From: Paracidovorax avenae ATCC 19860
GTDB taxonomy: Bacteria; Pseudomonadota; Gammaproteobacteria; Burkholderiales; Burkholderiaceae_C
NCBI RefSeq assembly: GCF_000176855.2
Contig: NC_015138.1
Span: 5,208,001 to 5,272,000, forward strand
DNA length: 64,000 bases
Direction: 5' to 3'
Position 1 is the stretch's first letter. Each line of letters opens with the position of its first letter. Of this stretch, positions 48,594-54,503 are shown one piece after another. The notes beneath the pieces were generated by a model that saw nothing but the letters and a program-made list of their open reading frames with translations, was not told where the DNA came from and searched no databases. The position numbers were made by a program, and so were the translations under genes.

Positions 48594-51500
48594 ATGCGCG
48601 CCAGTCATTCCCCTGTCCATTACCTTCCACTGACCGCAGCCCAGATGGGCATGTGGCTCCTTACACGTTTCGCGCCGCCCGATGCCCACTTCAATATCGC
48701 GGAGGCCATCGAGATTCGGGGGAAGTTCGATCCCCAGCTGTTTCTGCAGGCCTTGCGCACCCTGTGCGCGGAGACAGAGTCCCTCCGGCTGCGTGTCGAA
48801 GACACGCCCCAGGGCCCCCGGCAGTGGCTGGAGCCCGAGTTCTCGGGCAGCATCTCCCTGCTCGATTTCAGTGGCGAAGGCGATCCCCGGGCATCGGCGG
48901 AACAATGGATGGTCGAAAATTCTGCCCGCCGCACGGATGTCGAGCGGGAACCCATGTGGTACAGCGCAGTGCTCCGCATCGCTCAGGACCACCACATCTG
49001 GTACCAGCGCGGGCACCACTACGCCAACGACGGCTTCGCCGCCGTCATCGTCGCGCGCCGGGCGGCAGACCTGTACACGGCGCTGGTGAACGGCACGGCT
49101 GCGCCGGCCGATTCGGAGCTGAAACCACTGTCCGTCCTGATCGAGGAGGACCAGGCCTACCGCGACTCCGCGCGCGCCCTGAAAGACCGCGAATACTGGA
49201 TGGAGCGGATGCGCGACCGCCCCGAGCCGCTGACCCTCGCGGAACGGCGCAGCAACAACATCGGCAGCCTGCTGCGGCAAACGGCGCACTGGCCGGCGGC
49301 GCGCGTCGCCGCACTGCGCGATACGGCCGCGCTGCACGGCTCCACCCTGCCGCAGATCCTCATCGCCGCGACGGCCACCTATCTCTACCGCATGACGGGC
49401 GTGTCCGACCTGGTGATCGGCGTTCCGGTGACGGCGCGCTACAACGACCGCATGCGGCGCGTGCCCGGCATGGTCGCCAACGCAGTGCCCCTGCGCCTGT
49501 CCATGCGGCCCGAGCTGCCCTTCACGGCCCTGCTGCGTGAGGTCAGCCAGCAGATGCGCAAGATCCTGCGCCACCAGGCCTACCGCTCCGAGCAGCTGCG
49601 CACGGACCTGGAACTGCAGGCGAAGGACCACCCCCTCTTCACCACCATGGTCAACGTGGAGCCCTTCGACTACGCACTGCGCTTCGGGGACTGCTCCATC
49701 GAGACCCGCAACCTCACCAACGGATCCCCCCAGGATCTCGGCATCTTCATGTATGAGCACGGGAATGGCCAGGACCTGCGGATCGACTTCGACGCCCATG
49801 CCGATCTCTACACCGTCCCCGAACTGGCAGCGCACCAGGCCCGGCTGCTCGGCGTGCTCGACACCCTTACCGATCTTCCCGCGCAGGCCATCGGGTGCGT
49901 GGAGGTCATCACCGAGGATGAACGCCTGGCCTTCCTGTCCAGGTGCGGCGGAACGGTCCGTACGGAGCCCGGGGCCCACCTGGCCGAATTGCTGGACGCC
50001 GGCCTGTCGCGCGACCCCGGCGCGGTCGCGCTGCGCTTCGAAGGCCGCTCCATGACCCGTGGCGAGCTCGACCGCCAGGCCAGGGAATGGGCCCGCCGCC
50101 TGGCGGCCATGGGTGCCGGCCCGGACCGCCTCGTCGCGTTGGCGATTCCACGGTCGCTGGAGCTGGTGGCAGCCCTGGTCGCGGTCCTGAGAAGCGGGGC
50201 GGCGTACCTGCCGATCGACCCGGACTTTCCCGCCGACCGCCTCGCCTTCATGCTGGACGACGCACAGCCCGTGTGCCTCATGACCACGCAGGAGCTCTCC
50301 GGGCGGTTCGATGGCGGCATTCCGCGCTTTCTCGTCGATGCCGCGGAACCACAGGCCGGCGTCCAGCAGAATGCGCCTGCCGGCGCCCCCGCGGCCGCAG
50401 CGCTGCACCCCTCGCAACCGGCCTACGTCATCTACACGTCGGGGTCCACCGGCAGGCCCAAGGGCGTCGTGGTGCCCCACTCCGCCATCGTCAACCGGCT
50501 GCGCTGGATGCAGGCGGAGTACGGGCTGGAGTCCGGAGACCGCGTGCTGCAGAAGACGCCTTCGAGCTTCGATGTCTCGGTGTGGGAGTTCTTCTGGCCG
50601 CTGATCGCAGGTGCCACGCTCGTGATCGCACGGCCCGGCGGGCACCGCGATCCTTCCTACCTGGCGGACCTCATCGCGCGGGAAAGCGTCACCACCACCC
50701 ACTTCGTACCCTCGATGCTCGAGTTGTTCCTGCAGGAGCCTGCGGCGGCTGCGTGCCACACGCTGCGCCGGGTGGTCTGCAGCGGCGAGGCCCTGCCTGC
50801 TTCGCTGGCGGCGCGGTTCCACGGCATGCTGGGGTGGTGCGCACTGCACAACCTCTACGGCCCCACCGAGGCGGCGGTCGACGTCACCGCCTGGGCATGC
50901 ACGCCCGAGGCATGTGCCGGCCTGGCACGCATCCCGATCGGGCGCCCCATCTGGAATACCCGCATGTACGTGCTGGACCCGGGCCTGCAACCCTTGCCGG
51001 TGGGTGCCACGGGCGAGCTGTATATCGCAGGCGACGGCCTGGCGCTGGGCTACCTGAACCGTCCTGCGCTCACTGCGGAGCGCTTCATCGCGGATCCTCA
51101 CGGGCCGGCGGGCAGCCGCATGTACCGCACCGGTGACCTCGCGCGGTGGCGCAACGATGGCACGCTCGAATTCCTCGGGCGCTCCGATCACCAGGTGAAG
51201 ATACGCGGCCTGCGCATCGAACCGGGCGAAATCGAATCCGCGCTGATGCGCCATCCCGGCGTGCAACAGGCTGCCGTCGTGATGCGGGAGGACTCCGGCG
51301 GAAGCACGATGCTGGTGGCGTATTGCGTGCCCGCTGCCGGGGACCGGCTGGACGACTTCTCCCTTAGGGCCCATGTGGCACAGCGCGTGCCCGAATACAT
51401 GGTGCCTTCCGCCTTCGTCACCCTGGCGGAACTGCCGCTGGGGCCGAGCGGCAAGCTCGATCGCCGGGCGCTTCCAGCTCCCACCGCCTGCATTTCTGAC

Positions 51501-54329: not shown

Positions 54330-54503
54330 ATGACCCATCCCCTTGACGACAGCAACGGCCTCTTTCTCGTGCTGCACAACGCCGCAGGCCAGGCGTCCCT
54401 GTGGCCGCACTTCCTGGTGGTTCCGGCAGGCTGGACGGCAGTCTTCGGCCCGGAAAGCGCCGAACGCTGCCGCGACTTCATCGAGGCCCGCGCTCCCGCC
54501 TGA
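54330..54503 (+). CDS. MbtH-like NRPS chaperone
   Basis: A 57-residue member of the MbtH family, which binds adenylation domains and makes many of them soluble and active. The signature N-x-x-G-Q-x-S-L-W-P is visible (NAAGQASLWP), then VPAGWTAVFG and CRDFIE. It is shorter than the usual 65-75 residues and ends soon after the second helix, lacking the D-x-R-P tail. It is 31 nt after the glycosyltransferase gene, completing a probable three-gene operon with the NRPS. Confidence 0.9.
   Translation: MTHPLDDSNGLFLVLHNAAGQASLWPHFLVVPAGWTAVFGPESAERCRDFIEARAPA

Follow-up and report, generated by a model that had tools for sequence, protein, structure and literature searches.

A three-gene NRPS, glycosyltransferase and MbtH cassette in Paracidovorax avenae as a candidate pathway for a small glycolipid

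In the accounts cited here, mycobacterial glycopeptidolipids (GPLs) are N-acylated peptides with alaninol at the end, and their pathway includes a rhamnosyltransferase for the alaninol, along with MbtH, an O-acetyltransferase and MmpL genes (PMC1885439, PMC3537567). The relevant section of one of these sources gives three conserved tryptophans as the hallmark of MbtH-like proteins, and reports that one MbtH paralogue of M. smegmatis can substitute for another (PMC3537567). For the synthetase RzmA, the portion of the report on which we draw states that acyl length is set by R148 and Y138: with a shortened R148 the products moved from C2 to C8 or C10, with Y138A added they became C10-C12, and those of multiple mutants reached C12-C16 (PMC7804268). 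The same portion describes the rzmA and holA clusters as having no acyl ligase or ACP, with C domains that use acyl-CoA in vitro.

Here we compare with these systems a locus of P. avenae ATCC 19860, whose genome is one contig of 5,482,170 bases. The window is the whole stretch of DNA that was analysed (64,000 nucleotides; NC_015138.1, positions 5,208,001 to 5,272,000), and positions are those of the window unless another locus is named.

The locus and its three genes

The features are collected in Table 1. In the NRPS ORF the Pfam matches are Condensation (228 bits), AMP-binding (299), PP-binding (52) and NAD_binding_4 (188.4); the ORF after it matches UDPGT and EryCIII-like_C, and the third matches MbtH (67.5 bits). 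The genes are separated by 23 bases (NRPS-GT) and 31 bases (GT-MbtH), and a GGAG-type site stands ahead of each of the three ATGs. The preliminary description of a tight C-A-PCP-R, GT1 and MbtH set is thereby confirmed, as is its remark on the missing thioesterase, no such family being among the Pfam matches of the three ORFs. We set the NRPS start at ATG 48594, as in that description, and not at the TTG 48474 of the ORF list, because close 1449-aa homologues begin at the same position. Chance ORFs are ruled out, since the 12 best sequence matches have no internal stops and comparisons with six relatives give the NRPS a dN/dS of 0.15-0.36.

Table 1. Features of the cassette in the window and, in the last row, of related loci
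Feature	Position	Strand	Basis
NRPS, 1449 aa, C-A-PCP-R	48594..52943	+	Pfam, NCBIfam, homologues
C domain, starter class	48624..49925	+	PF00668; RzmA best solved match, 282 bits; tree
Active-site motif HHYANDG in C domain	49014..49034	+	Alignment to RzmA starter C
A domain including C-terminal part, code DVWHVSLVDK	50007..51455	+	PF00501, PF13193; code script, EntF control
PCP	51537..51719	+	PF00550; part after GGHS resembles second PCP of two-module relatives (segment identities)
R domain (thioester reductase), motifs TGASGFVG, YAKSK	51837..52883	+	PF07993, TIGR01746; MxaA best solved match
GT1 glycosyltransferase, 443 aa	52967..54298	+	PF06722, PF00201; H14, TNGGYG invariant in 30 homologues
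MbtH-like protein, 57 aa, short C-terminus	54330..54503	+	PF03621; alignment
Stretch missing in relative G002	48183..54569		Alignment; glnE-efflux operon gap there 88 bases
Acyl_transf_3 genes	L037 12867-14141, L040 12867-14120, L132 15513-16811		Variovorax-type two-module loci

The upstream neighbours of the cassette are yhdP and glnE; those downstream encode a regulator of the CecR type, an outer membrane efflux protein, a membrane fusion protein and an RND pump. A near-perfect 26-base palindrome at 54568-54593, just ahead of the CecR/TetR-type gene (start 54611), is probably the operator of that gene. A search for repeats at the cassette ends gave 29 families of direct repeats and 63 pairs of inverted ones; most are short, and we read none of them as a cassette end. 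There were no promoter-like sites (0.6 in shuffles) and two terminator-like sites (2.2 in shuffles). PHROGs returned one weak match of unknown function for the GT and none for MbtH.

Predicted specificities of the encoded proteins

The A-domain code was read by script at positions that we take to follow GrsA numbering, with EntF of E. coli K-12 as the control. The result, DVWHVSLVDK for the window against DVWHFSLVDK for EntF (the final K of both being assumed), agrees with the earlier statement that the two differ by one residue. Relatives with a DVWH code have I, V, F or M as the fifth letter, and the Inquilinus copies have a code identical to that of EntF. This comparison supports an A domain specific for serine and not for another amino acid.

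Among solved structures the C domain matches the RzmA starter best (282 bits), ahead of CDA C1 (191), ObiF1 (169), EntF (161), VibH (110) and others at 81 or less. A C-domain phylogeny, of the kind that the preliminary description proposed, had 32 rows and took in three of the six siderophore-cluster C domains, leaving out L003, L006 and L007. In it the 13 first C domains of the NRPS family group with those of RzmA, CDA and EntF (support 100/100), separate from second-module and siderophore-cluster C domains, and an internal-type C domain is rejected for the window on this placement. EntF is a long branch within the starter clade, so the tree alone cannot tell an acyl from an aryl starter. The family clade also holds the C domains of P0095 (Pseudomonas sp. 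B21-035) and P0070, two proteins that have a single C-A-PCP module and, in place of R, Pfam domains of the thioesterase type.

Residues 140 (Gly) and 150 (Ala) of the window C domain align with Y138 and R148 of RzmA, and EntF has Tyr and Phe there. Across 69 distinct family members, counted after six duplicates were dropped and with P0048 (no R domain) and L036 left out beforehand, the position equivalent to 148 has G in 59 members and A in the other 10, and that equivalent to 138 is S in 39, G in 11, V in seven, C in six and A in six. Both acyl-gate positions are thus small in 69 of 69 members, the window included, as in the long-chain RzmA mutants.

The R domain scores 271.4 bits with TIGR01746 (curated cut-off 213.35). 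Its nearest solved relative is the R domain of MxaA (197 bits), followed by a PKS R domain (179), a mycobacterial NRP one (71) and that of AusA (36). The MxaA domain reportedly forms primary alcohols, and four-electron reduction to an alcohol is therefore tentatively favoured by this likeness. It counts against a serinol product that even this nearest relative reaches just 197 bits and that the sequence is silent on two- versus four-electron reduction.

The GT is of the EryCIII-like/UDPGT type in Pfam, and its residues H14 and TNGGYG are invariant across 30 homologues. Among solved structures it is related to natural-product GTs, EspG2 and CalG4 being examples (best 74 bits). Among 398 genomes of the phylum there are six matches, the window's included; the other five are 37-46% identical, and none of them has an R domain adjoining. 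The GT family is thus broader than the cassette, and these five genomes give no clue to the acceptor.

The 57-residue MbtH keeps SLWP and PAGW. It lacks the C-terminal W-x-D-x-R-P, so that two tryptophans are present and the third hallmark one is absent, with the PF03621 match retained. The third Trp and the D-x-R-P end are missing from all eight MbtH copies at the glnE site (window, L125-L131), and W-x-D-x-R-P is kept in 12 of 12 copies from other loci; this alignment left out the second MbtH of the genome and the near-duplicates L036 and L039.

Genome-wide searches bear out, at the cut-offs used, the earlier claim that there is no aryl-acid pathway. The best match to DHB-AMP ligase has 209.5 bits (cut-off 723.55, passed by two of 14 control genomes) and that to isochorismate synthase 168.5 bits (cut-off 224.75, passed by seven of 14). 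The isochorismatase family, with seven matches in the genome, does not discriminate. In NCBIfam the MxcG model NF038078 is the best match of the NRPS (1016.6 bits, cut-off 2300), and the EntF model gives 736.5 bits (cut-off 2400); the protein thus falls outside the EntF/MxcG families on family score and also on aryl-acid supply. The six other C-domain matches in the genome cluster at 4.13-4.16 Mb, about 1.1 Mb away and beside the second MbtH gene. A partner NRPS elsewhere, which the preliminary description named as a refuting outcome, is rejected on this finding, and its claim that there is no second module is supported. Since acidobactin was isolated from A. citrulli, as stated in the part of the source cited (PMC4598715), the distant cluster is perhaps acidobactin-like. 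Three PPTase-type matches lie elsewhere in the genome.

Distribution and evolution of the cassette

A protein search with the NRPS scored 556 relatives, of which the best 120 were listed. NRPS, GT and MbtH genes are adjacent in 21 of 21 loci around close NRPS relatives in beta- and alphaproteobacteria, a set picked by its NRPS and containing near-duplicates. The GT directly follows the NRPS in every one, and MbtH is upstream in the four alphaproteobacterial loci and downstream in the remainder. The gene set is no one-off, and its NRPS family exists in a one-module state, as here, and also in a two-module state. The preliminary description knew of no characterised cluster with this set; this stands in that no described product of such loci, one- or two-module, was recognised in the open-access literature searched, while the gene set itself is found in all 21 loci fetched.

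Two-module loci occur in Variovorax, Acidovorax, Collimonas and Janthinobacterium. Those fetched share with the window the R domain and the GT and MbtH neighbours, and differ in an extra module with the code DAMLVGA, the last letters being uncertain; final letters are missing in many rows, and we draw nothing from the second-module code. The first module, with the code mostly DVWHISLVDK, is about 58-60% identical to the window's in Variovorax. An Acyl_transf_3 gene lies downstream of GT and MbtH in three of three Variovorax-type two-module loci scanned.

On quick trees made without bootstrap, the one- or two-module label requires nine changes for first C domains and 10 for R domains, at least seven changes in each being forced by well-supported branches. 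Up to about residue 950 the one-module protein of G006 (L124) is closer to the first module of the G003 protein (L121), and beyond that to the second PCP and R domain of the latter; the switch point adjoins closely similar A-domain tails. The two loci look like one site, as both have a Glyco_hydro_100 gene beside the NRPS. Collimonas P0038 and P0041 repeat the switch pattern, so that a switch at the PCP is seen in two one-module proteins set against two-module relatives; in P0049 the A domain is of the second-module type and the PCP of the first-module type. Over one 50-residue stretch, the PCP of the older, glnE-site clade is 72% identical to the second and 44% to the first PCP of two-module relatives, a likeness that fits module loss and would be compatible with either direction of change.

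The closest NRPS among the matches listed is that of P. oryzae ATCC 19882 (L036; 96% identity), and P. cattleyae has one at 89% among the best 120 of the 556 relatives. Seventeen genomes of the genus comprise nine with a one-module NRPS and GT, three with a two-module NRPS and GT, and five with no close GT. Eight of the nine one-module loci are at the glnE site, that of G006 being elsewhere. In G002 the flanks are contiguous (88-89% identity) and window positions 48183-54569 are reduced to 88 bases, so in this comparison NRPS, GT and MbtH were gained or lost as a unit. A close R domain was found in five of 399 family genomes, the window's included, in an even draw that holds only part of the genus.

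Some other copies differ in their surroundings. A chemotaxis receptor gene lies on the opposite strand between glnE and the NRPS in L126 (14077-16077), and L125 and L127 have glnE-NRPS gaps of similar size. The first 84 residues of the G010 NRPS (L125 14551-14802) are in a different frame from the remainder, through a frameshift or a sequencing error. In alphaproteobacteria, LuxI-type synthase genes stand upstream of MbtH and NRPS in L041 (5850-6485) and L042 (2596-3330) and a LuxR-type regulator gene in L044 (947-1672); these quorum-sensing neighbours suggest a regulated surface or signalling lipid for such copies.

Bradyrhizobium (L041) and Inquilinus (L044) also have a membrane fusion protein and an RND gene downstream of the GT. 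For the genus we reject the RND pump as part of the cluster: all 10 other genomes searched carry an orthologue, with 87-96% identity within the genus and 72% for G253; five of these genomes have no close GT, and in G002 the pump stands beside glnE without the cassette. Six comparisons gave dN/dS values of 0.15-0.36 for the NRPS and 0.13-0.24 for the GT, against 0.04-0.12 for glnE and 0.04-0.11 for RND. Both cassette genes are under purifying selection, weaker than that on glnE and RND.

Proposed pathway, alternatives and known systems

We consider it reasonably probable that the three genes are an operon for a small glycolipid, best read from the domain comparisons as a glycosylated N-acyl-serinol. 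The A domain, assisted by an MbtH protein, would activate L-serine and transfer it to the PCP, where the starter C domain would acylate it with a fatty acyl thioester, most likely an acyl-CoA of at least C8 from primary metabolism. The R domain with NADPH would then release the chain, most likely by four-electron reduction to N-acyl-serinol, and the GT1 enzyme would place a sugar on one hydroxyl. The serine code, the starter-C tree, the uniformly small gate residues and the MxaA-like R domain support this reading, as do the linkage in all 21 loci, the joint loss in G002, the dN/dS values and the lack of aryl enzymes over cut-off. Against it count the MbtH without its hallmark Trp, the faster evolution of the cassette than of its neighbours and the presence of EntF, an aryl-acid user, as a long branch in the same C-domain clade; the weight of the linkage is limited by the choice of loci through their NRPS.

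Among the alternatives, the one nearest to this reading has the R domain halt at the aldehyde, so that N-acyl-serinal is released and the GT glycosylates the serine side-chain hydroxyl or the hydrate. R domains make aldehydes or alcohols, according to the part of the source used here (PMC12783407), and the aldehyde-forming AusA is among the second-best kin of NCBIfam type; with MxaA so far ahead of AusA among solved R domains, we regard this outcome as unlikely. We think it distinctly improbable that the GT just travels with the NRPS and has a different acceptor, such as a toxic compound, in the manner of macrolide-inactivating GTs. Macrolide-GT families of NCBIfam match it under cut-off, and the related GTs without an adjoining R domain do count against action on the NRPS product, but its place right after the NRPS at every locus, in two proteobacterial classes, and its absence together with the NRPS in G002 speak for that action.

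Two further explanations receive very little credence from us. An EntF- or MxcG-like aryl-capped compound, with the C domain taking an aryl acid from a carrier protein, would accord with the high rank of MxcG and EntF in the whole-protein NCBIfam search, both under cut-off, and with EntF in the C-domain clade. The shortfall of DHB-AMP ligase and isochorismate synthase matches makes an aryl starter unlikely, and gate residues Gly and Ala in place of the Tyr and Phe of EntF also weigh against it. Equally remote is a decaying remnant, a one-module form left behind by a deletion, whose MbtH has degenerated and which does little: the altered MbtH end throughout the glnE site, the out-of-frame N-terminus in G010 and dN/dS above that of glnE and RND point that way, and purifying selection on NRPS and GT in all six comparisons, intact motifs and a second MbtH in the genome point away from it.

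The gene set is a real finding, and we take it for a probable lipo-amino-acid NRPS system with reductive release and a glycosylation step, present in several genera. If the glycosylated N-acyl-serinol reading holds, a glycosylated lipo-amino-alcohol would need no more than three genes, which would make this a very small NRPS route to a glycolipid. Natural one- and two-module versions share starter, terminator and GT, some near relatives seemingly at the same locus, and the family offers natural module-deletion cases for NRPS engineering. More tentatively, at a little under even confidence, we suggest a minimal Gram-negative counterpart of the GPL pathway, in which NRPS-GT-MbtH cassettes would make a widespread family of glycosylated N-acyl amino alcohols with one or two residues. 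Through near-identical A-domain tails and PCPs, recombination would be able to alter the number of modules and the amino acid, with a constant acyl starter, reductase and sugar transfer.

MxcG (myxochelin) and EntF (enterobactin) share the C-A-PCP core with the window protein, MxcG being also R-terminated and EntF having a near-identical serine code. The window's synthetase differs in its score far under the MxcG cut-off, in having no aryl supply over cut-off, in gate residues other than those of EntF and in the GT beside it. The lipoinitiating synthetases RzmA and HolA resemble it in a starter C domain without a nearby acyl ligase or ACP gene, as far as the cited part of their description goes (PMC7804268), but they belong to multimodular lipopeptide lines, whereas the window encodes a one-module synthetase that ends in an R domain and is accompanied by a GT. 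The GPL locus (mbtH, mps1, mps2, gtf, atf, mmpL), as represented in the accounts cited at the outset, likewise takes an N-acyl chain to an amino alcohol and has a GT for that alcohol and an mbtH gene. It differs in a tripeptide before the alaninol, a PKS, FadD, PapA, several GTs, methyl- and acetyltransferases and MmpL, and its tripeptide modules, PKS, FadD and MmpL are absent among the neighbours scanned with Pfam. By analogy, the window cassette, with three genes, one residue and a core pump, appears nearest in logic to the mycobacterial GPL pathway, yet it is no GPL locus.
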